A stretch of 64,000 bases of DNA. Origin: Chondrosia reniformis. Taxonomy: Eukaryota > Porifera > Demospongiae > Chondrillida > Chondrillidae. A model generated the notes under the pieces. That model was not told the DNA's origin, ran no database searches, and saw only the letters and a list, made by a program, of their open reading frames with translations. Shown here piece by piece: positions 40,901-64,000 of this stretch; the stretch's first letter is position 1; every line of letters starts with the position of its first letter. Position numbers and translations under genes: made by a program. The stretch is from the NCBI GenBank assembly GCA_947172415.1, contig OX359200.1, positions 5,954,501-6,018,500 on the forward strand, read 5' to 3'.

Positions 40901-40976
40901 TACAAGCTGCAATGTTTACCTCAACAATTAAGTACATATGTATGTACATAATAGAATAATAATAATAATAATAATA

Positions 40977-41011
<35 letters not shown>

Positions 41012-44000: not shown

Positions 44001-47000
44001 AATAGGATATACAGTACTTTTTGGGTCGGTTGTCCAGATTGGACATTACAATCGGTAATCGGCTAGCACTTGCTACTACCATTTGAACCAATGTTCCCAC
44101 TAGAATGACGTCACCATCCAGCAATAACCTTTTAACCAATTACGTCTGGACAACCGACCCAAAAAGTACTGTATATATTTTTGCAAGTATTACATTAGTA
44201 GATGGATTGTTGAAATATCCGGTAGAGTTTATGTTATTGATGTGTTCAACAATCTATCTACCATGCAGCAAGTACATATAAATATACAAATGTACATAAA
44301 CTCTATTATTGTGGCTGGCCCAGTGAAGAAGAAATATACGGTGATTACTCTTATATCGTCATCCAAAGCTCTTAGACTGTTGAAAATATATTATTTTGGT
44401 AGTAACTGCACTTGGCTATATATACGTATGTACATACATAGGATCCTTTTTTGCAATTTGCAATATTGCTATGATACTATAAAGTTTCATTGCTGCATAG
44501 TTACGTATGTTGATGAGTAAGGGGTGATACTTGGAGCATATCGCAGCAGGGAAACTTTCAATTTAAAAAATTACAAGATGTTTCGATCCATAGACCTTCA
44601 TCAGTTGTACTTTGGATGCATATTGTCCCTTTTATGAACTATGTATTATATACGTATTTATATATATGATATGCAGGTCAGGAAATCAACTCACTTGGAA
44701 GGTGAAGAGAGCGTCTGTCCCAGGTTGGTTCTCACATAAGTAGACGTCATACCTAACTTCAGTGAAGTATGCTTCGTTGTCATTGATATCCAAAATGGTT
44801 AAATAGACGATAGTGACATCTGAAAGGGATCCACTGTCCATTACTCTCACCTGAAGAATCAAAGCAGGTTTAGCAGTATCAAACATCAATGTTTTCTCTT
44901 AAAGTGCATAAATCAAGGTAAAGGGCCACTAAAGTGGCTAACTTGAATTCTGTAGTTCCGCAGGGTGTGGTCTTCGTCAGCATCTCCTCTTAGATCAAAG
45001 TTGTCCCTGATTATACCTGTGTCCTCTTCAATGGTGAAGTGACCATCCTTGGATGCACCATTTTTATATATGTCAAACCCAGTAATTGAATCAATACTGT
45101 ATCTTAGGACTGCATTGCTACCCTAAAATGCACAAATGATCACATATTATAGCCTTGGCTATGAATATGATTAAATGTGTATACCCATGAATTCCATTAA
45201 TAAAAAGTTCTATAAATAGAAGATTCCTTATAAGGTGCCTTACTATGTCAGGATCAGTTGCTTCCAGATAGTCCACAACAACAGCATCCTGTTCTCCATA
45301 TTCATGTATCTCCCCATAATAGTGGGACTTTAAGAAGCTAGGTGCCTCGTTTACATCACTGATGTCAAGATACACAGTAGTTGTGTTTTCCAGAGAAGAA
45401 TCTAGATCATCAGCCTATAAATACGTAGTTCACAATATGCATCAAAAATACTTATACCATATCTTTGAAAAGATTCATCTTTCAATCTTTTCGAGCAAAT
45501 ATATATCTAAAGATTGTGCACAAAGGCGATCCCAGGGTCAAACTGTCTGATAGAAAGATCAAACTGAACCTTTATTGATACTAAAAAAGATCAAAAGATG
45601 AACCCTTTCAAAGGTAAGTTCAACACAGTTAGAAGATTCTTAACATAGTAATCTACTTTAGAAATGAACTATATGGAAGCAACATCTTGTAGTGAAGCAG
45701 GCAAAACTAAGAGATATATGTATACACATTATAATTATAAGGAGAAACAATAAGAGATACGTATACACTCAATAATAAGGAGAAAAGAGTGTAAAATTCA
45801 GCTTACAGTAACACTGAATATGTAGGAAGATTGAAGTTCCCGATTTGGGTGTCCGCACATGTAAATCTTCCCATGTTCAGACAGATGAGTAAGGTTGTTT
45901 AAGATGTAAAATGTAACAAGATTACTACTGTACTGAGTAGCTATAGAATAGACAAAAGAAGGCAGAATATTCATTAATTCCGCATTATAGTACATACAAC
46001 CAAAATGTTAAATGGATAAAAGTACAAAGAACATTAAGTTTAATGTACTTTTAAAAAAATGTACAGTAAAACAGATTTATTGATCCCAACTTGTACATAC
46101 AATAATTGTGCTTACGTTGAGCAACTGCATATTGAATATGTCCTTCAGAGAAAGTGTTGCCATCAACAGCATGCACTGCTGTAATATATATACCATTCAT
46201 GAAGAAATTACTACCGTCCTGCAAAGGCAATCAAGAATAACACGTGCTTTTAAGTTGCGAGGCAGTTTTCTGGTGAACGTACACAAACAATATCAGGAGC
46301 TGTGTCAGCTATTTCAGGTGTAACATCATTCCAGTTATCTTGTAGGAAAATTGGATACTTTCTGTCCTCAGGTAAAACGGAAACTGTAAATGTGTGTGCA
46401 ACACTGGAGAGTGAGGGATTCCCGTAATCCTAAAGGAGGAGAAGTGATTGGATGCATGAATTTGGCCAATCATTGCAGAGCTTTTCTATGCTCTCACATC
46501 AGCATAGAGTTCAAAGCGAAACACATCACCAGAAATCAACGGATAAGGCCTGCTTATAATCAAGTCTCCAGTGTGAACATTGATGCTAAAATCCTGACCG
46601 CCCTGTTCAATAAATAAACACATATGCTTATATACTATAACATATGTAAATTAATAATACATAAATAAAATTAGTCCATTTATAGGAAAAAGAAATCAGG
46701 TTAAAGTAAGACACTGTGTACAGTGACATTCACGCAGGAAATGCAGGGGAATATTCTAGAGAAACATTTCATTAATGGGTTTCACTTATTATGCAAGAGA
46801 AAAGCTATCCTTTTGATAGTACTTGTAAAAATGGCCACTATGTATATCTTTGGGATGGTACATCCTTCGACTACATATATATGTACCTGGAATTCTGATT
46901 ATGCTTTGGAATCTTTGAAACACTAGGCTTATCACTGGGTAGTAGGGCCAGCAGGATTATTGATTGTCAGTACAACATTTAAAAGCTGGTGTAACAATTA

Positions 47001-48780
47001 GTATATATGTACATATACTATGGTAGGTAACACATATAAATGCTAACTCCTTCATCTTGATGAGGGGCTGTCTGAATCAAACGATAATCAAATCTCCCTT
47101 CTGGTCCATCGTTATCATCAGTAGCAGAGAAGCGATGGATAAAGAAACCCTTAGCTCTGTCCTGCAAGAGACACAAGCAATAAATGTGTCATTGCAGAGA
47201 AATTGCAAATAATCACTAGGAATTATCATACCCAATTAGGCCAGTGACCAAAGTCCCATTCTAAAATGTATATACGTAATATATTAGGTATGCGTATATG
47301 GAGAATTCTTACCTCCTGCACAGTGAGTGAGGTAGGGTTGTTGGTATCTGCTGGAAAGGTTGGCCTGTGGTTGGTTTGTTGGATAAATATCTCAACAGTT
47401 ATTGATGACTGTAATTAAGAATTCAAAATATAGCATTTATGCACTAGTGCAAAATGCAGGTTAAGATTTGCAACCTACGTACATAGCGGCTTGCATCAAC
47501 ATCTTCATAATATGCTCTGACTTCCATTTGAAATGTGTCATACTACATACGTATATACGTATGTACGTGTATATACTGAGAAAGATCATTACAGAGTGTC
47601 TGAAGTAAGTAACGGTGTATATATATTGACTGAAAAATTGGCCATCTACTATACAAAAATATACTTATACTGTAATACTGTACTACGTATGTGTATTCAC
47701 TGGAGGTTGCTGCATACATCACTCACTTACAATAATAGCCTTTCACAGCTATTACATGTACATTTTACATAATATTATTGTGTACATACATATGTACGTA
47801 CATATGTATGTACAAGCCTTTACCAACTCTGTTATAGTGCACTTGTTTTAAAGGTGTAAGGATGGCTGAAGGGTAGCTTAAAAGTCACTAAATTTGTAAA
47901 ATTATGTTTAGAATCAGATTTAATTTACGAGAAAACGAATTATATTAAACTGTGAAGGTAGAATCATATATATGTGTATATATATAATGAATCTTGTATG
48001 ATGTTGGGAGGACTAACTCTGTAAACTTGCAGTGAATTAGGTGTCATCTTTCTGATAACACCATCACTATCTGAAGAAAAGTAGAAATAGCGAGTGGCAA
48101 CACTTTGACCGGCAATGTCATGCAGAGAATATCGAACTCTGTTCTGGCAATGAGCATAACCAACAGCAAACACAGCCACTATTTCAGTATCTGTGGAGCA
48201 GAAATACATGAAATGGTAACACAGTGGTATTAAAGGGAATACATGCCTTGGACAGAAGGACACAAGTTAAAAGGATATTGGATAAGAAAATTATGCAAAT
48301 GTCTTTAAATTATTACAAGCCTGCAAGGCCAACTTCCAGTTACTTAATGATTTTTCATCCTCAATTTTGTGTCAGAACTACTTTCATCACACATACCTAA
48401 TATATAATTCCTCTATTGATGTATGTAAATCAGAATGTTTTCATGGAAGATTATCCATTTTCAAAAGATATTGTTATAGTTATATATATACGTATATAGC
48501 CACATAATTTGGTTAAAAAACATAGAGCACGTACTTGCTCCGTCATCTTCGTGTACCAAACCAGACACCGGAGAAGTTAGGTGTGCAAAAGTCGGTCTGT
48601 CAAGTGGACTGTCTGCAACAAGCAATACAAGCACAATGAAAATAGTTTTCCAACATTTGTAGAACTAACAAGAGCTTGCTGGTGGCTTTTCTTACTTAGA
48701 GTTGCTAATTCGTTGCATTCTTGTGACCAAACGATTGAAGTAACCACATAAATGGCCAACAACAGTAACTGAAGACGCAT
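25948..48780 (-). CDS. Giant cadherin (about 2,899 residues, about 20 EC repeats, one transmembrane segment)
   Basis: A type I adhesion receptor: signal peptide (MRLQLLLLAIYVVTSIVW), about 20 cadherin repeats, a transmembrane segment near residues 2624-2650, and a cytoplasmic tail of about 250. Calcium-linker motifs include DVNDNAPQF, DINDNIPMF, DINDNRPSI, DSNDHTPEF, DLNDVCPSF and DCNDNTP. No EGF or laminin-G domain and no clear beta-catenin site are seen. The 53 exons (5' to 3'): 48696-48780, 48535-48612, 48018-48190, 47483-47542, 47313-47408, 47048-47161, 46498-46602, 46283-46429, 46116-46218, 45807-45940, 45244-45414, 44943-45122, 44695-44850, 43528-43887, 43187-43462, 42618-42757, 42378-42492, 42168-42242, 42011-42062, 41521-41639, 41328-41443, 40720-40813, 39936-40175, 39199-39447, 38649-38795, 38032-38346, 36992-37246, 36564-36668, 35971-36087, 34819-35653, 34179-34306, 33587-33863, 32810-33342, 32403-32583, 31971-32248, 31367-31549, 30895-30993, 30648-30756, 30459-30529, 30305-30382, 30037-30103, 29923-29969, 29625-29867, 29193-29290, 28664-28822, 28046-28275, 27417-27462, 27272-27325, 27104-27152, 26852-27004, 26656-26753, 26438-26531, 25948-26160. 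Total 8,700 nt. Weakest joins: the donor at 28046 and at 38649. Confidence 0.92.
26170..26258. repeat. 20 bp tandem array at the last cadherin acceptor
   Basis: About four copies of AAGGACAAACAATAAACAAC, ending within about 10 bp of the last exon (acceptor at 26161-26162). On the transcribed strand it reads GTTGTTTATTGTTTGTCC, so it supplies the pyrimidine-rich tract before the splice acceptor. Confidence 0.9.
28046..28275 (-). other. Cadherin transmembrane exon
   Basis: Encodes the membrane-proximal LLESSYSTLNSLLSQECG, a hydrophobic segment VFIGLIVGVVLGGFCLLCLC continuing with LLCGCLCC, and a basic stop-transfer ERRRRRTYQKK. The cysteine cluster at the inner face suggests palmitoylation (inference). 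The donor used (ATTG|GTATGC) was chosen because it alone keeps the frame into the next exon; reading past it reaches a stop after MKVE, which could be an alternative short tail if the intron were retained. Confidence 0.8.
31120..31285. repeat. Tandem repeat in a cadherin intron (unit about 41 bp)
   Basis: About four copies of a G-rich unit containing GGTAGGATGGATGATGTAGG and GAGGGTGATG. It is in the intron between exons 31367-31549 and 30895-30993. Confidence 0.85.
34040..34135. repeat. Remnant of the palindromic transposon family
   Basis: ATGGATGGCTGCCCTATCCA, then AACACCTCATAAATCA, then CCTACTTCTAACATCATTTT: both edges of the 16445-17590 element joined, with the middle lost. It lies in a cadherin intron. 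Confidence 0.6.
34443..34645. repeat. Dispersed repeat (about 240 bp), copy 3, shortened
   Basis: AAGGATTCACAGAAGACCAA through GATGAAGGGTGGAATTCCCA to GTAGGAAAATGG, with two internal deletions relative to 8926-9165. It is in a cadherin intron, same orientation. Confidence 0.8.
36294..36472. repeat. 20 bp tandem repeat in a cadherin intron
   Basis: Eight to nine perfect copies of TCTGAATACCTAATTACCTA, flanked by related but diverged ACCTAC/ACCTGT sequence from about 36180. Perfect copies imply recent expansion, so length is probably polymorphic. Confidence 0.95.
37415..37520. repeat. Pogo/Tigger-like remnant
   Basis: TACAGTTGAACCCTGTTAAG is typical of the termini of pogo-type elements; no right end was found. 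Similar single ends are at 27537-27560 (TAGGAATTCGGTTATCTGAA), 42895-42985 and 60074-60160. Confidence 0.35.
38878..39145. repeat. 31 bp tandem repeat in a cadherin intron
   Basis: About eight and a half copies of a 31 bp unit made of GGTTCCCTGGACTATACCTA followed by TTTAGTGATGA, with few changes (GGTT/GATT). It ends 50 bp before the exon 39199-39447. Confidence 0.95.
39598..39650 (-). repeat. tRNA-derived repeat (SINE-like), minus strand
   Basis: On the minus strand: TATAGCCCAGTGGCTGGTGG (A-box-like), then GTAACCAGC, then CTGGATCCAATTCCCAGC (B-box-like). It has the same layout as 52825-52890. It is in a cadherin intron. Confidence 0.5.
40958..41011. repeat. (AAT)n microsatellite
   Basis: Run of AATAAT units with one TAGTAAT interruption, in a cadherin intron. 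Confidence 0.95.
41022..41128. repeat. Hairpin MITE, TTTGAGCATCTAAA family
   Basis: ATCTTTGGATGGTTCATCTT and TTTTGAGCATCTAAA are matched in reverse by TTTAGATGCTCAAAGATGAA and TCATCCAAAGAT. It is in a cadherin intron. Confidence 0.85.
41795..41960. repeat. Hairpin MITE with GACCCCCAGGGTC core
   Basis: The inverted arms are CTTATCTTTGGAAAGGGTCA and its reverse complement ending GGCCCTTTCCAAAGATAG, with an inner pair CTTTGGGAGC/GCTCCCAAAG. The middle holds GAAGAAGACCCCCAGGGTCG, shared with the copies at 4250, 45453 and 56905. Confidence 0.85.
44009..44174. mobile_element. Short MITE with about 30 bp terminal inverted repeats
   Basis: Left TATACAGTACTTTTTGGGTC followed by GGTTGTCCAGA; right TCTGGACAACCGACCC followed by AAAAAGTACTGTATA. 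The TA at each end suggests Tc1/mariner-type duplication. It is in the cadherin intron between exons 44695-44850 and 43528-43887. It is only about 165 bp long. Confidence 0.85.
45453..45622. repeat. Hairpin MITE, GACCCTGGG family, diverged copy
   Basis: ATCTTTGAAAAGATTCATCT at the left and AGATGAACCCTTTCAAAGGT at the right, with GCGATCCCAGGGTCAAACTG between. It is in a cadherin intron. Confidence 0.7.
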
Positions 48781-49060
48781 CTTCAGATATGCCTATAAAT
48801 ATTAAGAACAACCCATTGATAAAATTTCCTGTATACAATTGAGTATTTAACGAGTTTCTTTGAAATTAGTGCAATTTACTAATCGTTCGCACTTACCGTT
48901 CTAGCTTATACGTACTTTTACTAAGTCGCTTCTTGAAGTGCTTTCGAGCAAGGTGGTACGCCCAGTTTCGTGACGTCATAAAAACATCCGCCCCTTGTAA
49001 AGTTGTAAAGCTATGAATACACTTTATATATGTACATCATGGTAAAAGTGCTACATGTAA
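48781..49060. promoter_or_regulatory. Cadherin upstream region and ataxin-3 3' end
   Basis: 280 bp between the cadherin start codon and the ataxin-3 stop codon; both genes are on the minus strand. The cadherin promoter must lie here or overlap the ataxin-3 3' UTR. A TGACGTCA sequence (CRE/ATF consensus) is at 48971-48978. I see no TATA box that is convincing. Confidence 0.5.
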
Positions 49061-51561
49061 TTATTCCTGTTTGGGTTCCTGCAAACTAGCAGAAATGGCA
49101 AGTGCCAGTTCGTAATCGTCTTCCTCCTGCTGAAGCTGATGACAACCTACATGAGGCACTTGACCCTTCTGGTCTTTCTCCAAGGGCTGGGAGGGGTTAG
49201 GTGGAGCTGGAGCATCTTCATGCCTCTTCTCAAAGAGTGCAGCCTCTTTAGGAGTCACAGGGTTCTTTGTAAGCAGCATGTCTGCTTCACATTGCTCTAA
49301 CACACCATTGACCACAAATATAGAGTATCCTGCAACCAGAGACACAGTCGCAATACAGCCAGTGACGGGACTCCTTGGCAATTCTTATGACAAGATTACG
49401 TACATATATACAGGGGTTCTTTGGGGGTTCAGGGCTCATTTGCCTCCCCTTGAATAAAGTCAAATTGATATATTAGAATGGCAAACAACCAAATTGAACT
49501 AGGTTAACCCCTTATATTTTGCATTTTGCAACCCCTTGTGTTATTATTTAAAATTCTGTGAATATTTAATGAATACATATATCATTTGTCTTATAACTGA
49601 CCCATATTAGCTTTTAGCTGGTTTAACTTTCAAAGGCACAAAGTAGAATTCACTAATTTTATAAAAAAAGTAAAGTAAACGGAAGATCCATATGCTAATG
49701 TCTTCACAACCCTATCTCAGAGTTTTATTCAAATGCAATGTCCATAAACAACATAATACATGCTATTTACTATGCATGTCCTGTGTCCAGTGTCACATCA
49801 TATGTATAGCCTACCTTCCTGCCTGAGTTGCTCTAGTAACAAGCTAAGATAAGTGTCTGAAACTAGCCTTGGGCTGGCTAGAAGGGAGTCCAAATTAAAC
49901 CACTACAAATGAATAAAAGAAATGTTTACTTCATTTCAGTCTCATGGATCTTTCTCAACAGAAGGGTTGGCTCCCCACCCAGGACAGGAGGGCCGCCTCC
50001 CACCCAGGACAGGAGGGCCGCCTCCCCACCCAGGACAGGAGGGCTGCCTCCCCACCCAGGACAGGAGGGCCGCCTCCCCACCCAGGACAGGAGGGCTGGC
50101 TCCCCACCCAGGACAGGAGGATATTCTACATAAATCTTAAGACCTCACTTGCAGGCCAATCTTTCTTAGGGATAACCAGTGTTGTTCATGGTTACAGATA
50201 TAGGCGTTTGCCTCACTACAGACACAATCATAAGAGAAGGCAGAGAATGGCTAATATATACTGTATACAGGACTGAATTGAATAAATGGGAATAGTGAAA
50301 AATACATACAAATAATCAACACATTTGCATGTACCAAGAATCTGTAGAGGTGCCAGTGACTTAAGTGAACTTGTATCTCTTCGATAAAGCCATGATAAAC
50401 ACTTATAACCATGTGACCATTTATTGGGTTAATGTAAGAACTTAAAAAGCCAACAAACATTGAAATAAACGTATCTAAACTGTTGAGATTGCATGTAAAA
50501 TAAGTCAAAAGGCAATAGTACAGGGCTGCATATATAGAGGGGGGTGGGGGCTATTCGTCCCCCTAGGATTGACTTTGCCCCTCCCTCCCCAGACCTTTGG
50601 GAAGTTAATATACAGCTTAATATCCATGCCCCTCCCCCCTCTGCCAGGCCTCAATGTAGCCCTGAATACCATCTTATTGCAAAAGTTTTGATGAAAATCT
50701 TTCATCATTTACTCAGAGTATTAATACTCCAGTTTACCATATGTAGGATATACAGTAGAGTAGGAATCACTCGGTCACATGCAAAACATACACTGGATTC
50801 TGCCTCACATTCTTACAAGCTTCAGAGTTGTACGGGACCAATTCCAAATTAAAGACCTTCAGAGCATTTGACAACACCTGAAGAATATAACAATACATTC
50901 CAATCCACTTACACTGCTCTATTGTGTAGCCACAAATATTAAGCTATGAGGAAACATGGGGGGAACCCCTAGCCACTGTCTTGTATACACAATTAAAAGT
51001 CCACATGGGAAAAACTTTAATTTCCTGGTTCGCTTCCAATTCAGCCTTTTTTCTTAGCCACTTTAGGGCCATATTCAAGGAGTCGGTATTGGAAACATCC
51101 TCGAAAACCTTCCTTAATAAGCTTAATATACCTGAACTGAGAAAAATCCATGATCATCAACATTTCCAGAAGGCAGCTGGGGAGATAAATTTAAACAATA
51201 TACTTTTAGGTATACTTACAAATATTTACTGGTCACAAACCTCACCAAGATCTTCTTTCAGAAGATGGCCCCTCTCAGCAAAGTCTAGTTGCCTGCCCAA
51301 GTCTGCTAGATCAACAGCAGTAAAGTAATGCCCTTTCAGAAGATAATTAATCGATAAGAAAAAACATCGGAGGACAAGGAAAATGAATAGACTGATTACC
51401 ATGACTAGAAATTGATCATGCGCTTACCTTGAAGAAGTGAATTCAAACAATGCTGAGCACACAAAGAACCCTCTTGCTAGGAGAGAGACGGATTGATTAA
51501 TTGAGTTTAAGAAGATATAAATTATAATTAACAAGACCTTTTCGTGAAATATCTTCTCCAT
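49061..51561 (-). CDS. ATXN3: Ataxin-3-like deubiquitinase (Josephin domain, one UIM)
   Basis: Ataxin-3 trims ubiquitin chains and works with p97/VCP in protein quality control. Exons (5' to 3'): 51538-51561, 51428-51476, 51241-51332, 51132-51176, 50792-50877, 50149-50215, 49815-49902, 49061-49329; total 720 nt, 239 residues. The start is MEKIFHEKQEGSLCAQHCLN, placing the catalytic Cys at residue 14 as in human. The catalytic His is in CNHEQHWLSLRKIG and the catalytic Asn in WFNLDSLL. Also seen: GNVDDHGFFSVQ, VLSNALKVF, SDTYLSLLLEQLRQEGYSIF. The tail ends in one ubiquitin-interacting motif (EEDDYELALAISASLQ). There is no polyglutamine tract, and the tail is much shorter than in vertebrates. 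The third exon's end (GAG|GTTTGT) is the least certain join; about ten residues of the human helical hairpin have no counterpart. Confidence 0.92.
49968..50122. repeat. Minisatellite in an ataxin-3 intron (unit about 26 bp)
   Basis: Six copies of a unit containing CCCACCCAGGACAGGAGGGC and CGCCTCC. It lies between exons 50149-50215 and 49815-49902. Open frames across it on the plus strand are artefacts of the repeat. Confidence 0.93.
50518..50666. mobile_element. Short element with CAGGGCTGCA inverted ends
   Basis: Left AGTACAGGGCTGCATATATA followed by GAGGGGGG; right CCTCCCCCCTCT and AATGTAGCCCTGAATAC. A related end is at 8330-8368. It is in an ataxin-3 intron and has no coding capacity. Confidence 0.55.
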
Positions 51562-51681: not shown

Positions 51682-54600
51682 ATGACTCACTCATCCGGGA
51701 ACATGGCTCTGAACTATCTACTCATCCCTTTTCTAGTTTTGTCTACCTTGCAAAGCTGTGTCAACAGCGAAACGGTTATAGCGGCGTACGACAGCACTCC
51801 ATGGAGATTTCCAGACCAATGCGGTCCTCCTCCTTCGATGAGTAATGGAAGAGTCGTCGCTGGACATGTTTTCTTTTATTGGGATAGAGGCTCTGACCGA
51901 ATTGAGTTGATTGGGCGTCAATATAGTACTGCTATGTATACGGCTTCGCTCCTCAATGGCACGTTCCAAGTGTCGATGGAACCTTTAAATACATCAACCG
52001 GTAAGTGGGATTGCTTGTGTGATGCCTTATAAATTTGAGCTGATAATTCAGTCTGAGCACCCGGCGGAATCATCTGTAGTAATTGGTGTAACATTTTCGT
52101 AATATTGTTGAACGATCACTTAACGATTTTCCTCCTCATCATCTATCCATCTGTCTCTCTGTCAATCTACCCAATGTTTCAAATTGCATTCACATGGCAT
52201 GAATCTGTAATTACACTGCATGTATTTTCCTGTTTCCACCATAGGAGAGTTTCGAATCCATTTTAGCTCAGATAACCCCAACAGGGTTCTTCCTTCTGGT
52301 GTGTATCTGGTTGATATTGCATACATGTTTTCGGGTTCTGATCAAGACATTAATCCCACGGGAACAGTCAACCATACACTAGAAGTATTTGAGCAGTTTT
52401 TAATAATTGACAATGCTAACAGCACATTTGACTATATCATTCCAATTGAACCTGGGGGATCACTCAATGGCTTTACACCAGTAGCCACATTCCACGTCAA
52501 AACAGCCACCAACATCATTTCCTCCAACTTTACCTTAGTCAATGTATCAAACTCCGCAGGAACGTTTATTCTTACTTCTAATGGTTCTTTAAGTGTTAGT
52601 AGGAGCTCTCTATTTGGCTTCTACCAGATTAGTATTAGGGCAATTATCAGTACTGGCACTAGTGGCATGCGTTCTTGTGAAGGATCAGTAGAAGCAGTGC
52701 TTAATGTCAATGTAACTCAATCAAGTTAGTACACCAAAAGAACATTGTAATCACTGTGTTCATAAACTAACTTAATGATATAAGTAGAGTAGGCATGAAT
52801 GGAGCATTAATTGCTGAGTATGCATTTTGTAGCTCAGTTGGCAGAGCACTGGTAGTCAAAACCAGCTGTCAGAGGTTCAATTCCCAGAAATTACATTTGT
52901 GTTTTTCTCATCATGTTCAACAATTGTGGCAAGATTGATTATACGTATATCACTTTCATAGAAAAAGATTTTACTTCTTTCTATACTTGTGCTATTATTA
53001 TTAATACGTATGTAGCTATTTCTCAGTGTCCAAGTGTCTGAATAACTTTATCATTTTCTTTTGTCCTTTAAGATGTTACGGTAGCTGCTGACTTTGATAT
53101 TCCCTCTCCCTTGGTACATCTTGATCAGTGCAGCCCTGGAAATCTTGGAACTGTGTATTTCTACATAGTTACTGTCCCAGGTGGATCACGTAGCCTGGTG
53201 ACATCTCCTTATAGCATTATATATTCAGTTAGTGTCAACAGTTCAGATTTTGTCGTCAATTTGGAGCAATTTAATGAATCAGCTGGTAAGGTATTCCCAC
53301 AATAATCATTATCACAACTATACTATGGTTATTGCGTATATAAAAATTTTAGAATGCCACTTTTTATGGTTATATAGATGATTGTGTTTTCATATTATTT
53401 ACTTTTCCCAAATGTATAGTCACTTCAGCATGCCATTCCTACCTCAGTAATAACTTCATATTTTTTTTAATCCCTGTAATGTGAATGTTTTCTTCATTTC
53501 TCTCTTTACTTCTTCTGGTACATTGCATCTCTAATTTGTATTTTCAGCCAATATATTGATTCTCAACAATACTGTACCAACTGGTATATATGATATCCAA
53601 GTTGACTATGCCTTGGAGAATGGAGAGGTCAAACAAGTTACACATTTTACATTAGAAGTTCAAGATCAGTTCAAACTTGTTGATGCAGTGACTAGTGTGG
53701 AAATAAATGATATTACAGTGACTGTGAATAGGGGTGGTGATGGGAAAATTGATATAGTTAATCTTAACCTAGTTGCCAGCTTTCCCCTCTCTCAAGAAGA
53801 TGTTCAATTTGATTTAATCTTAGAAGACGGAAATCCATCGGAAAACTTTGATTTACTAGCCTCTGGAGGGTTAACAGTAAGGAGGCGGGCACCATTTAGA
53901 ACCTATGTACTATTCATTTCAGCTAACTTTACTAATATGAGCACACCACCCTGTTCAGCAGTTGTAAAGTGGAACATTACAGTGAAGATAGTACCAGGTA
54001 AGCCAAATGTAGCTATATAGTGAGGCCCTATACTAAGACTAGCAAGTATATATAGTGATTTTGTCTGAATGTTTGAGGAAATTAATCCCTAAAATTGTTA
54101 CTCATTTAATTTTTGGTGATCTTCCTCTTAATTATTCTCTGCAAAGGAAATGTTAGTATAGAAGTGGTATTTGATGATATGGAGGGAGAATGGACAATTC
54201 CTAATCAATGTGATGGTACCCTAGGCTATGCATCCTTCTACACGCGCAGTGGAGGTAATGGAGTTAATACAGGGACTCTAGTTCCAGTTGAACCACCGTT
54301 TATGTTTTTCACCTCGGCAACAGTCAATTCAGCAGCCTTCTCAATTAATTTCCTAAAGCTAAACTCATCATTTGGTAAAGTATTTCACATATAATGTGCC
54401 AAGCTAACTGACTACTGCTATATCCTCTTGTCTATTTTAGGAGAATATTATGTGAACTATAGTTCTTCAATGCAAGATGCTACTTTACCAATTGATGTAT
54501 TCTCAGTAGAAATACTATACAGTTTAAACATTAACTTAGTAAATAAAGTTGTAAATCGTAACCTGACAGTCTTTGAACCATTTAAAATTGCGGTTCAAAA

Positions 54601-57600
54601 CAGGTCTGAAAATGTTATATTTGCAGCTGGAGATGCAGCTGAATCTGATAGCCTTAAACTAGTATTACAGAGAACAGATGGAAATTCAGTAGCAACTGGC
54701 AATGAAGTCTTTACACTTATTTCAGAAAATGGACTACCACCCTTAAATGTTGATCTTGATAGAGGCGGTTATCTCTCTATTACTGACACCCTTCCCCCTA
54801 GCTCAATAGACCTACTTGTGAGGGGAGAGGTCATTACCTTTATAGAGTCAAACCTGTGTTCAAACATAGTAGAAGGTATTATAGTCTTAAAGATAGTAGG
54901 TAAGTTGATAGTCATGTGATGGACAACACATTTTAATAATTATAACTGTTAATATATGTTTTTATTTGCAATTGCCTTAATCCTTTCTTGTAATTTTAGA
55001 AAGAGTTGAAATGGTCATAATCACCCTAATTAGCTGGACTCGTATGGAAATAAGTTGGACGCCCCCTCAAGATACTTCTGATATTATAATATATGAGGTA
55101 CTTCTTATAACAGGCGCCAGCACTGTTACCAAACAAGCTGGCCGGAGCAAGAGGTTGACCAATTTAGCCATACCAGAGGGTGATACTGAAATATTAGTAT
55201 GTGCTGTCTATCAAGGGAATTTCAAAATCTGCAATACTCCTGGACCAATACTTTTTATATATGGTATGGTGCGTATAGCTAGAATGCTTAATGTGTGAAT
55301 AGTTTATGTGTTACAGGAATACTGTATACCCAGAAATGTTGGCAGGAAAAGTATTTGGCAGATTGTTTAATTATGGATATTTTAATTTGGCTCTTCAGCA
55401 GGCACTGATTTTATATTCTTTCTTTAAAGTAGTGAAGAATAATTGGTGAAATTTGCACCACAAAAATATTTATGTAATAATGATCATGTTGTGTATAAAT
55501 ATATTTTATTAATATTTTATTTTGACAGATAATTTATTGACAATTAGCCTTTCAAACTGCCAATCTGTCTAAATATATTCCCCGCCAATATTTCAAGCCA
55601 TATGGTATAGTGTATATGCCTATATACGAATTAAGAGTAAAGTTGCTCTAAAATATTCCCTTTCTGTTGACCACTCATTTAGTGTCTCCTTGATGTTATA
55701 ATTACACACTAAGTAAGTATGTACCCATACTGAAGGACTGGCTCCACTCTATAAACACCCACTACTTTGGTGTTGCATAATTGTATGTGATAAGTACCCG
55801 ATGTATGTATGGTATATGAATGTGATAATTTTGAGATGGATTAATGGAATGAGATCACCAGCAAACCAAAACAATTCAATTATCACATGTCACACTATGT
55901 AAATTTGAGCTGTTCACTGTAACTCACTGGTTTAAATGTTTTATTTTCACCCCATTAGATAACCTCCGCCCTCCAGCACCTACTGACGTACAGGCCACAG
56001 AGGTAGCTAGTAACATGATTGAGGTTACTTGGAAAGCTTCATCTGTTGTTGGAGAGGCAAACTACTTTATTTATATTAGAAGTTCTCAATCGTTTACAAA
56101 TGTTTCAGTTGGGAACAGTAGCTCATTTATAGTGTCCTTATCGCTGACTGGTAATGTTGATTTTACAGTTTCTGTGGTAGTTGTGACAGCAGTTGGTATC
56201 AGTTTGGAAAGTGAACCTGTCGGGATTACCAGTTAGTTACTGTCTATTTTAGAAAGAAAGGATTCATTGAAAGATGAACTCTAAAAATTTAACACAGTTA
56301 GAACAAACTTGTGTCGTATCAAAATTCTTTACTTAGTGAACAGAATTTAAGTGTTAAAGTTGGATCTGGCATTACCTTTTAAAATTGACAAAAATGTTTA
56401 TTGTACGTATCTTCTCTTAACTGTAGCTCTTGCAAAATCATCCAACCTAAATATTATCATAGGAGCATCAGCTGGCGGAGGAGTAATAGTTTTAATTTCT
56501 TTAGTTTTGCTGATAATCTGTCTTATTTGCTGTTGCCTGAGGAAACACAGAAGAGCAGAAAAGTATAATGTGCAGAAACCGTAAGTTAAAGAAATAAACC
56601 AATATACAAGTTATATGAGTTTGATAGTAAGCTGGTATTAATTAAACTATTTGGTTGAGTAACCATGTACACACAACCATATAGTCATGGGAAGAAAGGA
56701 GAATGTTTAATACTGTATCCTAACCTCAAGCTCTATAAGTTTTCTGTTAGTCATAAGTCTTATTTAGTCCTATCCTCATGTTCATGTTACCAGTAATAGG
56801 TTGGTGTTTTAGAATATTAATGGTTGTTACTTTATAATGACTGTTTTGTTTGAACTTTATACTTCTTTTTATGTTTATTTAGATTTTGAAGGTAGTTAAT
56901 ATTATGTAGAATAAGGATTTCTTCTAACTGCGTGAAGCTTATCCTTTGGATGGTTCATCTTTCGATAATTTTGAGCATCTAAAGACACTGTTCTTTGTTC
57001 TGTCGGACATTTCGACCCTGGGGGTCTTCTGTCGTTGTAAGATGAACCATCCAAAAGTTAATATGTATACTCTTTAATTATTGCCTTATTTATTACTATT
57101 GACACACATATTAAATAATTGTAGATATCAGCGTTCAGAGTCGGGTTCTGCCTTTCTCTACAATAAGGAAAATGAAGTTGAGTAAGTTTTAATATCACTG
57201 CAGACACTGTAGCTATATACGTAATTGTTATATGTAAGTTGTATACATCTATTGTACTGTATAAAGGAGTACATATGGTCACTTGAAGGTAATATGCTGA
57301 CCAGCCAAGTGACTGAAGTCTTGGTTATAGGACCAGATTTTCATTAAAAGTGGCAACCACTGATTGCCTCCCAGTCATCCAAGCGGAAAAATCATGAAAG
57401 AACTACAGACAGCTGCTTCTTCCTTCCCCAAGATAATAAGATTTCATTCATTTGGCTATTCATCATAATATCTGCCAGTGATTAATCACTTCTTTATCAT
57501 AGCTATACACAGGCTATATTTAGCTCTGTTAGTTCACATCTGCTTAATTATTAATATATGTACTCATCATACAAGAATTAAAAATTTATGAACTCAACAC

Positions 57601-60600
57601 TCAGTCTGTTACACTATTTAGCAATCACTTATAAATATTAACACATTGCATCATTACTACATACCTGTAGGATGTATGCAAATGTTACTCAAGGAGCTAG
57701 TTCTGTCCGTAAGTTAAGTTTGCAGTGTTTGTACTTGCGTCAAAGGGTGGAATGTTGAATCTGTTTTGCAAACTGTATAACAGTAAATTGTAATGTGGAG
57801 TTTTCTTTACAGGATATACTCCTAGTCCCAATAACAATAACGAGGAAGTGTATGCTAACTCAATGATGGAGTCGGAAAGAACTACCAGTATTCAGCCTCT
57901 CCTGAAGACATCAGAGGAGGTTGACATCTATGAGGAGGTTAGGGCTGTCATAAAGGACCCAAAGTTTGCCATTTCAGTGGTAGCAAAGATGGATGCCTGC
58001 AAAAGGTCTGGCCCTCTTTGGGATCCGCTGACAGGAAAGATGCAGAGTGGAGCACTAAGTCAAAACCTTCCTGATAGGGAAGCTACTCCTGAGGACTATG
58101 ATAAAGAAGACATCTATGTTGACTTTGAAAAAATTTATCACAAGGTAACTAATTGGTGCTGCAGTCTATGTGTCCTTGTAATTATGTTATTGTTTACACT
58201 TAGGATGCTTCAGATGACATACTGGGAGGATTTGAGAAGGATCCTAATACATTTGTTATGCAGCAAAATCCTATTGGTGAAGGAGAATTTGGAAAGTTGG
58301 TTGTTAACCATTTATTGTGATGTATAACGTCAGCTTTCATTTCAGCTGCACGAGGTTTTCATTTTACTTATAACTTTCCACTACTGTATATACAGGGTGT
58401 ATAAGGGAGTGGCCAAACATTTGGTTCCCGGAGAAACCTCTACCCCAGTTGCTATCAAAGTTCTAAAGGGTTAGTGCCACAACCACATAAAACCGCTTTT
58501 TTCCACCATGTGGTTTCAATTTATGGGGTGGGGATATGAATGAAGCTGTGACCACCATCTTGAGTAATATTTGATTCTTTATATGTAACCCAGACGATAC
58601 TTCTGAAAAGGCAAGAAAGGATTTCCTTTCAGAAGCTCAGATCCTAGCCCACTTCTGCCATCCCAACATTTTATCTCTTCTTGGTGTGTGTACAAAAGGG
58701 AAAGAGGTTATGGTTATTACAGATCTTTTTCCGAAAGGGGATCTGAAAAACTACTTGAAGAGGTGAGCATAATTTCAGACACTCTGCTAGGTTTTATAAT
58801 GCTTTCAGATAGTTTAATGACTTTCTATAAAGCTATACAATAAATTTAATATGTAAATAATCACAACTTTTGTATAAAATAGTACATTTATAGTTTTAAT
58901 TACATATCTTCTGAGATGCTAGCAATTTCTTTTCTTCAGAAATAGAAACACTCTATCAACAATAAGATGGCAATCTATTTTTGTTGTGCATGGTCTCTCT
59001 ATATTACTGATAGTTTTCATGATTTTTGCATTTTTAAATTAACAAGAATTGCCAATTTCTTACAAATTAACTAATCACACATACATCACTCTAATTTTTA
59101 TGCAATAGTTTCCAAAAGATTACCAAAGTGACATGTCATTACATATAATATGCAACTCTGTAGTGCTCAGAAAGCTAAAAAAGAAGGGAGAAGTAATTCT
59201 CAACTGCAAGTTGGAGATTTGATTCGTATTTCTGGACAAGTAAACAGTTTGATAAATAGTGGTCCATTAAAATTGTGATTAATCATTAAAATTATCAGCT
59301 ACCATTTGATCCTATAGATTGCATTAGGAATGGAATATTTGGCATCAAAATATTTCATTCATCGAGATTTGGCTGCAAGGTATCTCATCATAATATTGTA
59401 TCTAATTTGACTGAGACTGTGATATTATGCAATATGTTGTATAACAGGAATGTTCTAGTTGGAGATGGTCTTCATTGTGTCATTGCTGATTTTGGTATGT
59501 CCAGAGTGCTTGCTAAAGATGACTCATACTACGAGATGAGTTCTAACAGTAAGCTGCCATTTAAATGGATGGCTCCTGAGGCAATAGACTATAAGAAGTT
59601 CTCCACTTATAGTGATGGTTAGTAAATATATAGAAAGGTTTTCAACAGACAATTATTGTGTCCTTTATGTTAAACTTTAAAACAAACTACTTTGATATAC
59701 ATATCCTACGTAGATCTAGAGGCCCTTACCTCCTCAATTTTATTTTGGTCATTTTTTATCCAGCCTCAATTTGAGCCCAGTATCCCTTTCAGCAACCTGG
59801 CTTCTATAAAAATATTTATTTATTTTGGTGTCTTAGGAGGCACTTAATTAGTCTTTTCATGGCACCATTGAAGGAGGCATGTTGGGCTTTCACTCTGGCA
59901 GTACTACTGCACTGTAAACTGGTTTAGATATTACAATTGGTTCACATTTCAGCCCAATGTGTAATTGATTCAGGAACCCCTGCCTCTATTCAAGGTCCAG
60001 CTTCTATTTAAGAATACCAAACAACTAGTTTACTTTATCTACTGCAAGATTATCATCAAGCTCCTTTTATAGCTACAGTAAAACCTCCGATTAAAGGGAA
60101 CCAGACCTACCTATATTGTTCTTTATAAAGAAGTTGTCCTTTCTCGGAGGTTGCCCATAGAATGTATACAAAACACCAAATACTTACATGCTGTATAGAC
60201 ATCCTTTTTTATTAACATCGATCAATAATAATAAACTTTTTGACCGTAATACGTACATGCACAACTGAAGGTTTATATATGTATTAGTTTATTACTTATA
60301 AGCTTTAAGAAAGAAATTATCAAATAATCGAAGCCACAGCATCTAAGGATACTACCTATTTGATTGGATTAATAATTGTTGTGGCTCTTTTGTATTACAG
60401 TGTGGAGTTTTGGGGTTGTGCTGTGGGAAGTAGCAAGTTTTGGTCAAACACCTTTAAAGGTAAATGTATACAATTATGTACATGTGTATTATAAAGGAGA
60501 GTATACGTAGGTACGCATGTTCAAGTTTATAGCTGATAAGTGAATATATAATCACTGGAGTTCAGCCCAATGATTGAAGTGTTGGAAAAAATAGGGGAAC

Positions 60601-61533
60601 TTTAAGATCTAAAGCTGATCTTAAAGCATCGATGTCATCATCATTAAACTCTGGGTAGAGCTCATTGCGCTCCTCAGGGGACATGAGTGGGCAGGGGTAA
60701 TACCCAGAGTTTATTGATGATGACAGATTGAAGTGTTAGTGAACAGAGTCATAGTACATAGCAACCAAGTATAACATGAAGTATAATATACTCCGTTGCC
60801 GGGGCAACCGCCTGTGTTTAAATTTCGTAACCGTGATATAACAGGAAGAAGCTAAATACTGCATCGGCTTCTTAAATCCTGTTATATCCCTGCCCAAATA
60901 TGGTAAACTAAGACGTTTCTCCTTGGGGGGTAGACAATTCTCCTTGCATTTAGGACAGTTGGAGTAGTCAGGGCAAGAGCATTCTAGCGATGGACTATAT
61001 ATCACTCATACCATGGCGCTTCGGTGTATATGGATTTTATACGTAAACACCTCAGCATCGTGGTATAATTAATACATATAATAATGGAGTATATCATTAT
61101 ACCCTTACTGACTGTCTTCAGAAAGTGCCGCCATCTGATATCTCAAGTTATCTCAGAAGTGGTCGGAGAATGGCACAGCCAAGTCAATGCCCAGATGAAC
61201 TGTAAGCTACATACTTAAGAATGATCTTAATATTCTTAATTGTAAATGAATGCTAAAACTCGTATGTTTATGTACATGCACACTTCACCAGCCGTTTCCT
61301 AATTGCATGTCAAACCTATCTTATAATGATACAATATTAATTAATCATACTTAATTGGTATGGTTTGATTTATATATGTATGTGTCATTTTATAAAATTG
61401 TAGATATCAAATGATGTTAAAGTGTTGGGAATTTGAAAAGGAAAGGAGACCTACTTTCTCTTTGCTAAAAACTCAATTAGTTACACTCCAAAATATATAT
61501 AGCACAGAAAAGGAGGGCACCATATACATTTAA
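51682..61533 (+). CDS. Receptor tyrosine kinase with three-fold repeated ectodomain module and two FN3 domains
   Basis: Exons: 51682-52000, 52245-52724, 53073-53285, 53548-53997, 54147-54374, 54441-54899, 55000-55263, 55959-56231, 56427-56580, 57125-57181, 57671-57708, 57813-58144, 58204-58295, 58396-58469, 58594-58762, 59164-59239, 59318-59379, 59448-59617, 60401-60459, 61122-61201, 61404-61533; total 4,179 nt, 1,392 residues. The signal peptide is best from the second Met (MALNYLLIPFLVLSTLQSC). Residues about 30-716 are three copies of a two-exon module (see 52245 entry), 717-895 two fibronectin-III-like domains, and about 902-935 the membrane segment. The juxtamembrane region is long (about 150) with YANV, YANS and YEEV tyrosines. 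Kinase: GEGEFG loop, VAIKVLK lysine, SEAQIL glutamate, HRDLAARN catalytic loop, DFGMSR, activation loop YYEMSSNSKLPFKWMAPEA, SDVWSFGVVLWE. All key residues are present, so it should be active. The short C-terminal tail ends GTIYI. Sponges have many lineage-specific receptor kinases; I cannot place this one in a bilaterian family. Confidence 0.92.
51740..54899 (+). other. Three tandem copies of an unrecognised ectodomain module
   Basis: Exon pairs 1+2, 3+4 and 5+6 each encode one module of about 225-260 residues. The first exon of each has a QC around residue 25 (FPDQCGPP, HLDQCSPG, IPNQCDGT), a V(F/Y)FY or ASFYT strand, a V-x-S-x-x-F-x-V strand and ends in S/T-x-G at a phase-1 intron. The second starts with a strand then (V/I)LP.GVY..(D/Q)I.Y (LPSGVYLVDIAY, VPTGIYDIQVDY, LPIDVFSVEILY), then LEVFEQF / LEVQDQF / LTVFEPF, and a late Cys (RSCEGSV, PPCSAVV, NLCSNIV). 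The two Cys may pair. All junctions are phase 1, which fits duplication by exon shuffling. Confidence 0.75.
52825..52890 (+). repeat. tRNA-like sequence (tRNA-derived repeat or tRNA pseudogene)
   Basis: TAGCTCAGTTGGCAGAGC (D-arm and A box), CTGGT/ACCAG anticodon stem with loop AGTCAAA, and GGTTCAATTCCC (T-arm and B box). The acceptor stem does not pair and the loop lacks the expected U33, so it is not a working tRNA. It is in the second intron of the receptor kinase. Confidence 0.6.
56905..57058. repeat. Hairpin MITE with GACCCTGGGGGTC core
   Basis: TTATCCTTTGGATGGTTCAT at the left and AGATGAACCATCCAAAAGTT at the right; TTTTGAGCATCTAAAGACAC and GACCCTGGGGGTCTTCTG between. It is in a receptor-kinase intron. 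Confidence 0.8.
60074..60165. repeat. Pogo/Tigger-like remnant
   Basis: TACAGTAAAACCTCCGATTA at the left and GTCCTTTCTCGGAGGTTGCC at the right form a loose inverted pair typical of old pogo-type elements. It is in a receptor-kinase intron. Confidence 0.4.
60631..60725. repeat. Hairpin with 24 bp arms
   Basis: GTCATCATCATTAAACTCTG continuing GGTA at 60634-60657, matched by TACCCAGAGTTTATTGATGA continuing TGAC at 60700-60724. The loop is about 42 bp. It is in the receptor-kinase intron before exon 61122-61201. Confidence 0.85.
60780..61102. mobile_element. Small element with TATAATATACTCC inverted ends
   Basis: TATAATATACTCC at 60781-60793 and GGAGTATATCATTATA at 61087-61102 are inverted. Inside is a further hairpin (GATATAACAGGAAGAAGC / GCTTCTTAAATCCTGTTATATC, 60835-60890) and, on the minus strand, an open frame with a cysteine cluster CSCPDYSNCPKCKENC. 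It is about 320 bp long and ends 20 bp before the acceptor of exon 61122. Confidence 0.5.
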
Positions 61534-62943
61534 ATATAAAAGTTTGTGACATATATGACCAGTACCAAAGAAAAGCTATAAGGTCCAAATACATTTAATA
61601 TATTTTCTCTTGTTTATAGCTTTTAATTTGAGTTTTTTTGTATACATATTATTTATTTAAGTGCATTATATGTACACAGACTGACTAGGGTTATTAACCC
61701 AAAACAACACTATACAAAAGCAGTTGTTCTTGGAAGAAAACATTAAAACAATTATTCCATAATCTGCTCTTCTCAGCCATCATTCACTTCTGAGTCCATC
61801 TTGAATTAAATGTATTGTCCCGAATTCATTTCACTGCTCTAAACTTATATATTATATTTCTACGTATAACCTAAATATTGCAGATATAATGTGATTCCCT
61901 ATATATAGCTAGGCGAATTTAACGAGCGAGTTATCCCATTCAGCTAGCGCTATATAGCACGCGCACTTCTGTGGACACAAGATGGCGTCGCTTTTTCGGG
62001 GGTGACATAGCTAGTTTCAGGCCACAGGTACACCAGACCATTCGACCGTGCTCGAGCTGAGGTCTAGCTGCATTCTCACCCTACGTATATACGTGTACAC
62101 AAACTGCGATAGCTATACCTATCGCTACCTTTGTAAGTTTCGTGCGTTTTTGGAAGCGCCATATAGCATATGGCATAGGCGCCCCTATATTGTCAGAAAT
62201 TATGTAACGTATGGCTTACTGTTCGTAACCTTGTATATACATGTATATGCTCCTATACTGTGTATGGGGAAAACGAAAAATCCGCCTAATCCCTATATAC
62301 CTTACTCCCTGATATCTGTCACCAAAATGGCGGACGTTAGACTGGCTTTAGTTTTCTAGCTTAAAACTAGCTTTCTCTTCCTTAGCGTCGAATATTAAAC
62401 AAACGAAAAGGATTTAGAAACCACATTTACTAATACTATGTAACGTAAAGCCTGCGTAAAAACGTTTTCTACGAGATATAACCTTGAAAAATTATCGGCA
62501 ATCAAGCAACGACAGGGTTAGGGTCTAAGAACTACGTATAAGCCAGTTTGCTGGGGGCGCCCCACGAGTTTTGTTAAACTCGAACTACTTGTTTATGTAA
62601 CTTTGCGGCTGTCAACGGGCTATAAACAATCTACACCTCACAACTTTCCAAATTGATATAGGCCGGCCGAATTTTAACACGTGCAACGTGGACATGTGTC
62701 ACCATTAAAGGACAAGACAAGTTCGGTAAATTAGTTCGGTTTAGTTTGGTTTAGTTTGGTTTAGTTATCAGAAATCTCGAATGAAATGGGTTTTGGAAAA
62801 GAAATAGAAGGTACAGAGAGTGCATGTACTATATTTTCATGTAGTTTAACTAATTCGGACACTGTACGTAACCTTGCCTGAATATAGTTTACTATTTCTG
62901 TATCAAAGTCTTTCTTGTATAATATATAGTGAAAAGATTCAAG
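61534..62943. other. Intergenic between receptor kinase and BTB-Kelch gene
   Basis: No gene is supported. Two YY1-like motifs, ACAAGATGGCGTC (61978-61990) and CAAAATGGCGGAC (62323-62335), occur in a more GC-rich stretch (61920-62340) that may be a promoter or untranslated first exon of the downstream gene. A short GGTTTAGTTT tandem lies at 62731-62765. The open frame at 62048-62359 has no recognisable motif. Confidence 0.45.
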
Positions 62944-64000
62944 ATGGATAATGGCGAGGTAAAATGTGACTTTAAAGGCCACTGCTCGTCTCTCCTTAAC
63001 TCCTTCAAAAAGATGTCGGAGAACAGAGAACTGTGCGACGTGATACTGACCGTTGGAATTAAGCAGTTTCACGTTCACAAAGTCATACTAGCGGCGAGTA
63101 GCCCATATTTCCAAGCTATGTTTACTAGTGCACTTCAGGAGAGTGCTCAGAAAGAAATTAATTTGAAAGGAACCAATGCGGAGACTGTAGAGACCCTTAT
63201 CAACTGTGTATATGAATCTACTCTAACTATCACTGTAGAGAATGCCACTTCAGTCCTCGCTTTAGCAGCTCAGTGGCAGATGGAGAAGGTTGTGGAAGTC
63301 TGCGGTAACTTTCTCCTCAAACATCTGGACATTGAAAATTGCCTTGAAATGCTTTTTTTTGCTGATGTACATGGCTGTGATGTCCTGAAAAAAGCGGCCA
63401 CAGATGTTTCAATTATTGATTTCTCAGGTGTTTGTCAGACAGAAGCATTTGTCAATGCTCCCGTGGAAATCTTGTTGGAATTACTAAAATTCGACTTTTT
63501 GGTGGTTCAGTCGGAAGAGAAGCTATTTGAAGACCTTCTAAAGTGGTTTAATCACAGCCCTGAGCTCCGAAGAAGTGACATACTAAAGATGTTAGATCTT
63601 ATCAAGTTTCCCTTAATACCCTGGGAGGTCATTGAAGAGAAACTGAAACAGAATAAATTGTATTTTGAACAAAAATGTAAGAGGATGCTTACAAATGCAC
63701 GTAACTTTCAGATGCATCCTAAAAAGAGAGCAGACTACAACATGGAAGATCCCCTTTATGTTCCACGTAGTGGGAGTAAGCCAATTTATGTGATTGTATA
63801 CGATTACGATGACTCTGATAACAGAAAACACTTTGTAGAACAGTATGATCCAACATTAAATCAGTGGAAAAGACTTACATCTCTTCCTACTAAAAGGATG
63901 TACTTTGAAGTGTGCACCCATCATGGGTTACTGTATGTCATTGGTGGTGGAGATACCTTTGATGGTAGTCCTCTAAACCTTGTGGAATGCTATGATCTAA
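62944..64000 (+). CDS. BTB-Kelch (KLHL-type) protein, N-terminal part, runs off the window
   Basis: KLHL proteins are substrate adaptors of CUL3 ubiquitin ligases: BTB binds CUL3 and the Kelch propeller binds substrate. One open exon of 352 codons so far, with no stop before the window end. BTB, residues about 14-120: FKKMSENRELCDVILTVG, FHVHKVILAASSPYFQAMFT, and ENATSVLALAAQWQM. BACK domain, about 125-235: CGNFLLKHLDIENCLEML, ILLELLKFDFLVVQSEEKLF. Kelch repeats begin near residue 280 with VEQYDPTLNQWKRLTSLP, and LLYVIGGGDTFDGSPLNLVE starts the next blade. The start is the first ATG (AAGATGG context) and gives a normal BTB N-terminus. It cannot be assigned to a specific KLHL number without the propeller. 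Confidence 0.93.
   Translation, partial: MDNGEVKCDFKGHCSSLLNSFKKMSENRELCDVILTVGIKQFHVHKVILAASSPYFQAMFTSALQESAQKEINLKGTNAETVETLINCVYESTLTITVENATSVLALAAQWQMEKVVEVCGNFLLKHLDIENCLEMLFFADVHGCDVLKKAATDVSIIDFSGVCQTEAFVNAPVEILLELLKFDFLVVQSEEKLFEDLLKWFNHSPELRRSDILKMLDLIKFPLIPWEVIEEKLKQNKLYFEQKCKRMLTNARNFQMHPKKRADYNMEDPLYVPRSGSKPIYVIVYDYDDSDNRKHFVEQYDPTLNQWKRLTSLPTKRMYFEVCTHHGLLYVIGGGDTFDGSPLNLVECYDL

Follow-up and report, generated by a model that had tools for sequence, protein, structure and literature searches.

A demosponge gene for a predicted receptor tyrosine kinase whose ectodomain carries three copies of a two-exon module unrecognised by sequence

A receptor gene with a three-fold repeated ectodomain

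We analysed a window of 64,000 nucleotides from the demosponge Chondrosia reniformis (contig OX359200.1, positions 5,954,501 to 6,018,500), very probably part of chromosome 12 of this species. The genome report gives 117.37 Mb in 14 chromosomes plus a mitochondrion and mentions an Ensembl annotation (PMC12181767). On the plus strand, at window positions 51682-61533, our sequence-derived model of one gene joins 21 exons into a protein of 1392 residues, with GT-AG borders in all 20 introns. The product looks like a complete single-pass receptor tyrosine kinase (RTK): a signal-peptide-like start is followed by three copies of a module, two exons resembling fibronectin type III (FN3) domains, a hydrophobic stretch with basic residues after it, a tyrosine-rich juxtamembrane region and a tyrosine kinase domain. 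The putative N-terminal signal peptide and single transmembrane helix are assignments made by eye from the translation; residues 1-905 hold 22 N-glycosylation sequons.

The outer part of the predicted receptor consists of three copies of a unit of about 220 residues, two exons per copy, and then the two FN3 domains. An earlier note on this DNA, made from the letters alone, had described the unit as a three-fold duplicated module, and the three copies are indeed related. Whole-module Smith-Waterman scores were 121, 109 and 135, compared with shuffle means of 37-38 (z = 12.9, 10.5 and 14.8), and none of 1000 shuffles reached the score of any pair. By halves, the first exons of modules 1 and 3 were matched by 2 of 1000 shuffles and their second exons by 1 of 1000; for the remaining four pairs the count was 0 of 1000. 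Profile hidden Markov models (HMMs) built from two of the copies found the third at E = 4.4e-14, 1.6e-13 and 8.4e-11, where the best values among 2000 shuffles were 0.0061, 0.002 and 0.065. As controls, scores between the first and second exon of the same module were reached by 143 to 731 of 1000 shuffles, and those between second exons and FN3 exons by 102 to 656 of 1000. The two FN3 exons compared with each other were also at noise level (718 of 1000), so the pairwise control is blind to a remote shared fold. Identity to module 1 is 29% for module 2 and 23% for module 3, so the copies either arose long ago or belong to a fast-evolving outer part.

Aligning the copies confirms much of what had been described for them. 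All three spread over two exons, and 3/3 keep a Q and a C close to the start as well as one late Cys. The proposed (V/L)PxG(V/I)YxVxIxY strand is kept in modules 1 and 2 but is degenerate in module 3 (LPIDVFSVEILY), and the LxVFExF strand is found in modules 1 and 3, but module 2 has LEVQDQF instead. Phase-1 module borders had also been claimed. Every exon border from 52000 to 56427 (exon 1/2 through exon 8/9) is in phase 1, but no exon border marks the 5' side of module 1, as the start codon and the signal-peptide-like stretch share exon 1 with it. The pair of FN3 exons that follows the modules on the membrane side falls outside the region covered by the earlier note and was not mentioned there. 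Coordinates are collected in Table 1.

Table 1. Predicted features of the receptor gene, in window positions (Cys numbers are residues of the predicted protein).
Feature	Position	Strand	Basis
Module 1	51760-52000 + 52245-52724	+	
Module 2	53073-53285 + 53548-53997	+	
Module 3	54147-54374 + 54441-54899	+	
Exon 1: start Met, signal-peptide-like stretch, first part of module 1 (D1, Cys47)	51682-52000	+	gene model, alignment, Cys positions
Exon 2: end of D1 and whole D2 of module 1 (D2 = 52397-52723, Cys251)	52245-52724	+	gene model, alignment
Exon 3: first part of module 2 (D1, Cys286)	53073-53285	+	gene model, alignment
Exon 4: end of D1 and D2 of module 2 (D2 = 53670-53996, Cys473)	53548-53997	+	gene model, alignment
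Exon 5: first part of module 3 (D1, Cys509)	54147-54374	+	gene model, alignment
Exon 6: end of D1 and D2 of module 3 (D2 = 54581-54898, Cys703)	54441-54899	+	gene model, alignment
Exon 7: FN3-like domain 1, phase 1-1	55000-55263	+	gene model, Pfam, FN3 profile
Exon 8: FN3 domain 2, phase 1-1	55959-56231	+	Pfam fn3, PDB fibronectin match
Exon 9: transmembrane helix (by eye) and cytoplasmic start	56427-56580	+	hydrophobic stretch, then basic residues
Exons 10-12: juxtamembrane tail with tyrosines including YANV, YANS, YEEV	57125-58144	+	gene model, motifs
Exons 13-21: tyrosine kinase domain and C-terminus, stop codon ending at 61533	58204-61533	+	gene model, Pfam, motifs

Intron 2 contains a tRNA-like stretch (52829-52889), perhaps a tRNA-derived repeat, in which ARAGORN calls no tRNA.

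The kinase, its downstream copies and the reach of the module

The kinase domain matches Pfam PK_Tyr_Ser-Thr at E = 5.4e-94, with other, weaker matches outside residues 1-716, and carries GEGEFGKV, VAIK, HRDLAARN, DFG, APE and DVWSFG in that order, which bears out the claim of an intact catalytic core. Its activation loop has YY, in addition to the juxtamembrane tyrosines listed in Table 1; pYxN is the consensus bound by the Grb2 SH2 domain. Both exons between the modules and the membrane read as FN3. Pfam fn3 matches the protein at E = 1.4e-10 over two stretches, the best of which is exon 8; exon 8 also matches fibronectin in the PDB (E = 1.1e-4), and exon 7 stands out in the profile test given below.

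Among the best 60 of 822 matches of the kinase to PDB chains, one EGFR construct lies above all families (381.7 bits, via two stretches), with Eph at 238.1 bits, RET at 230.5, TrkB at 223.4 and IGF1R at 220. Eph receptors have two FN3 domains before the membrane, an ephrin-binding domain and a SAM domain; RET has four cadherin-like domains, a cysteine-rich domain between those and the membrane, and no FN3. The gene might be a descendant of an Eph- or RET-type receptor in which the ectodomain has diverged or been replaced, as Eph and RET are the best kinase families below the EGFR construct, the two FN3 domains recall Eph, and an ectodomain of repeated, diverged cadherin-like sandwiches would recall RET. 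We give this little probability. Eph and RET are less than 8 bits apart, so the kinase settles no family, and neither an ephrin-binding nor a SAM domain appears in a Pfam scan up to E = 10. Unlike RET, the sponge protein has three pairs of domains plus two FN3, and its cadherin likeness is itself unproven; no cysteine-rich domain was found before the membrane, since only 2 Cys lie between residue 716 and the membrane, where the FN3 domains are located. According to a study of tyrosine kinases, cadherin is the distinctive domain of RET, and the RET kinase motifs predate the addition of the cadherin domains (PMC8662651). The same study describes lineage-restricted tyrosine kinases in sponges and choanoflagellates, such as Src-Aque1, HMTK and RTKC (PMC8662651). 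The predicted receptor resembles these as an instance of a known phenomenon and differs in its module, which is undescribed in the titles and abstracts searched.

Kinase exons recur downstream every 7-9 kb and are 77-97% identical, the gene's own exons scoring 95-97% in the same search; this pattern suggested an array with a shared kinase and different outer parts. A tandem unit runs from about window position 58300 to beyond 64000, comprising the 3' half of the kinase and a putative BTB-kelch-like gene, and it is repeated downstream with about 86-100% DNA identity by piece. Three copies were read, within window 58300-64000 and C12:6018501-6038500 (pieces L009 and L010), the third being incomplete at the end of the DNA. 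The DNA match of the copies begins at about 58300, right after exon 13, and in all three exon 14 has lost one base, with a frameshift and a stop as the result. Exons 1-13 had no tblastn match at E up to 10 in the 22.5 kb downstream, in a run that did detect both the gene's own exons and those of the downstream kinase copies. An array of receptors with variable ectodomains is thus rejected for the three copies read, with other DNA between the copies checked for unrelated outer parts through its reading frames alone, and the intact receptor heads the row of copies read.

In the first two copies, exons 20 and 21 are 100% identical at the DNA level, exon 18 is 100% identical over 170 and 164 bases, and the introns are about 94-98% identical; the sequences suggest recent duplication or gene conversion of the kinase copies. 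A further copy near C12:6045k is known through kinase loci alone. Away from the tandem array, C12:1608477-1620674 and C13:4518990-4529303 are 66-95% identical to the kinase exons, and the 3 kb upstream of one of these two loci gave no blastn match to the receptor gene at E = 1e-5. The tandem unit also contains pieces of GTPase exons on the minus strand (L009 2320-2700 and L010 6814-7137), presumably Rab-like.

The module itself was sought in the whole genome (117,379,552 bases, 15 contigs). A consensus query recovered all six module exons (49-65% identity, E = 6e-44 to 2e-4) and no place beyond them, with a reach that we estimate at about 45-50% identity. When one exon or one module served as the query, the matches were limited to the query itself, an 80-bp fragment or, at E = 0.03, a sister copy; as most of the sister copies escape such queries, a single one has little reach. 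Module HMMs were also run on 71 loci, 65 of which are 3-4 kb long, mostly kinase loci with flanks of about 1.5 kb and several duplicated in the set. Outside this gene they found only the 80-bp DNA fragment (E = 1e-4 to 0.003), the rest scoring at E = 0.16 to 0.99. The fragment (C10:220323-220402) lies on another chromosome and is 100% identical to window 52471-52550 in the second exon of module 1; the 40 kb around it hold two further short matches to the gene region (46 bp at 89%, 30 bp at 90%), outside the ectodomain exons. A query from the FN3 domains to the juxtamembrane region gave 35 matches at E up to 10, of which 6 were the gene's own exons and the best elsewhere, around the membrane segment, had E = 6e-4, so this part of the protein lacks close relatives as well. 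At this sensitivity, the module belongs to one gene. The earlier note had read the phase symmetry to mean that the module can shuffle between receptors; because neither the consensus query nor the 71-locus scan finds a second carrier, such exchange is not supported.

Elsewhere in the window, the minus strand upstream carries a large gene rich in cadherin repeats (about 31800-48800), with PF00028 in 6 of 10 scanned stretches at E up to 0.01, two of them above the Pfam cut-off. Between this gene and the receptor gene, also on the minus strand, are exons with Josephin-like and UIM-like stretches (49061-51500), which are putatively ataxin-3-like. A 15-bp tandem repeat of 73.5 copies (10100-11179) is open in several frames.

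Fold and cysteines of the module

None of the sequence libraries tested names the module. Up to E = 10, Pfam gives nothing for residues 1-716 but an ARM model at 0.11, and the six half-module domains, scanned one by one, have best E-values of 0.039 (ARM again) and 0.068, so that a strong profile match to a known Pfam domain is absent. The NCBIfam value of E = 0.12 is not significant either. PDB sequence-profile searches with the module returned 0, 0 and 3 matches, the three being unrelated (E = 0.88 to 4.5), and pattern scans gave 35 matches in viral contigs (IMG/VR) and 45 in those of prokaryotes, none of which was confirmed. A literature word search of titles and abstracts, whose scope leaves aside subscription papers including the Amphimedon genome paper, gave no description of the module, and one on cadherin-like domains together with RET gave nothing.

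Each module is probably two beta-sandwich domains: D1, which takes up the first exon and continues for about 40-50 residues into the second, and D2, the remaining 106-109 residues. An AlphaFold2 model of module 1 D2, with the D2 sequences of modules 2 and 3 as the alignment, has seven strands (mean predicted local distance difference test score, pLDDT, 66.5; predicted template-modelling score, pTM, 0.57). Foldseek found 1264 PDB matches to this model at E up to 10. Cadherins, protocadherins and CELSR1 account for 35 or 36 of the best 50 (one chain is perhaps the antibody of a cadherin complex), a share that overstates specificity, given how many cadherin structures the PDB contains. An AAVR domain ranks first (E = 1.1e-3, TM-score 0.50/0.58), and two dystroglycan rows, one FGFR1 immunoglobulin (Ig) domain at rank 23 and bacterial sandwich domains are also present. 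The model thus points weakly to a cadherin- or PKD-like fold for D2, and by extension D1 would be a beta-sandwich too. The earlier note had set the module apart from all common receptor modules, cadherin included, by eye; in the libraries tested it does go unrecognised, but the fold search points to the very class that had been excluded.

Several results weigh against two sandwich domains of this class. No Foldseek row has E ≤ 1e-3, and the cadherin rows have query TM-scores of 0.28-0.55. For the second exon of module 2, taken with its D1 tail, the model reached a pLDDT of 44.9, too poor to be used in a fold search. In favour of the two-sandwich reading, profiles of D1 and D2 match best locally on the same predicted strand (VPTGIYDIQVDY with APFRTYVLFISAN), but not significantly (hhalign E = 0.14); the score of 13.8 compares with a mean of 10.8, a standard deviation (SD) of 2.1 and a maximum of 17.9 in 200 column shuffles. 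When D1 and D2 were compared as profiles with 13 cadherin repeats, the scores stayed at shuffle level, and a joint profile of all six domains scores 12.46 against the cadherin repeats (40 shuffles: mean 8.7, SD 1.5, maximum 13.0). With a cadherin HMM, the best domain, module 2 D2, was reached by 88 of 2618 shuffles and module 3 D1 had no score. Module 1 D2, the copy that was folded, was reached by 67 of 2961 shuffles with the FN3 profile vs. 755 of 2513 with the cadherin HMM.

This last comparison, together with module 3 D1 (134 of 2884 shuffles with the FN3 profile), would fit modules that are highly diverged FN3 or Ig domains, the ectodomain being an ordinary FN3/Ig string. The FN3 exons directly adjoin the modules with the same phase-1 borders, and as those two exons fail to match each other pairwise, missing pairwise similarity excludes little. 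We nevertheless consider such a string unlikely. FN3-like exon 7, scored against an FN3 profile built without it, reached 10.1 bits (0 of 2837 shuffles) and in hhalign 18.3 against a shuffle maximum of 14.7, so the profile tests are able to see a diverged domain; the other four module domains were reached by at least 693 shuffles. The best 50 Foldseek rows include no FN3 title and only the one Ig domain.

A module could also be one integrated domain of new fold, its two Cys forming an internal disulphide. The lack of significant similarity between D1 and D2, the joint occurrence of first and second exon in 3/3 copies and a structure model that covers D2 and not D1 all agree with this, but D2 alone models better than the whole second exon (66.5 vs. 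44.9, albeit in different copies, module 1 vs. module 2), and we find a single domain distinctly unlikely.

For two cadherin- or PKD-like sandwiches, the likeness to extracellular cadherin (EC) domains (PF00028) and to dystroglycan-type cadherin-like domains lies in the seven-strand D2 model and in its Foldseek rows. The difference from EC domains is one of sequence. PF00028 has no match up to E = 10 in the ectodomain or the six single domains. Calcium binding by cadherins uses motifs of the LDRE and DxNDN type; LDRE, DRE, DxND, DND and NDN are absent from residues 30-716, where the nearest are one LDRG (module 3, residue 669) and four xEN. Because the cadherin tests are at or near noise and the calcium motifs absent, our assignment stops at a module that sequence does not recognise and whose fold is no more than probably of the cadherin or PKD type. 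A regular expression for a cadherin strand pattern, reached by 0 of 20000 shuffles, was discarded as circular, the pattern having been drawn from modules 1 and 2 themselves.

Residues 30-716 contain exactly six Cys, one per D1 and one per D2 (Table 1). The spacing from D1 to D2 within a module is 204, 187 and 194 residues, and across module borders 35 and 36. If all six are paired, the simplest regular scheme would join D1 with D2 of the same module, since cross-border pairing leaves the first and last Cys single. In Ig-like topology, the loop after strand A of one domain faces the loop before strand G of the next, and this geometry would suit a clasp within the module. The two Cys of each module thus probably form a disulphide that clasps D1 to D2.

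A proposed clasped rod and its meaning

Taken together, we think it somewhat better than an even chance that the gene encodes an RTK carried on a rod of disulphide-clasped sandwich pairs and activated by a ligand or by contact. In this proposal, the outer part would be a rod of six small beta-sandwich domains, arranged as three duplicated pairs on two FN3 domains; the sandwiches would be cadherin- or PKD-like in fold, lack calcium motifs and form a sequence family of their own, and the two Cys in each pair would clasp D1 to D2. A ligand, or a surface protein of a neighbouring cell, may bind the rod and bring receptors together, in which case the kinases would phosphorylate each other at the activation-loop YY and at the juxtamembrane tyrosines YANV and YANS. 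Once phosphorylated, YANV and YANS might recruit adaptors of the Grb2 type through their SH2 domains. Ligand-driven dimerisation and adaptor binding are what we would infer from the layout.

More tentatively, and with rather less than even confidence, we suggest that the unit is a new extracellular domain family born in sponges, a calcium-free sandwich pair held by a disulphide and triplicated on an orphan kinase, which would bind an undescribed ligand or cell-contact system. Odd ectodomains are expected in sponge kinases, and receptor kinases of early animals often have outer parts that databases cannot read, so that the ligands of these receptors stay unknown. Here, the module offers a handle for finding relatives in other sponges: its repeat is clear, each copy spans two exons and carries two characteristic cysteines, and its fold can be tested. 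If the module is indeed cadherin-like, the gene would add a sponge RTK with domains of the cadherin type.

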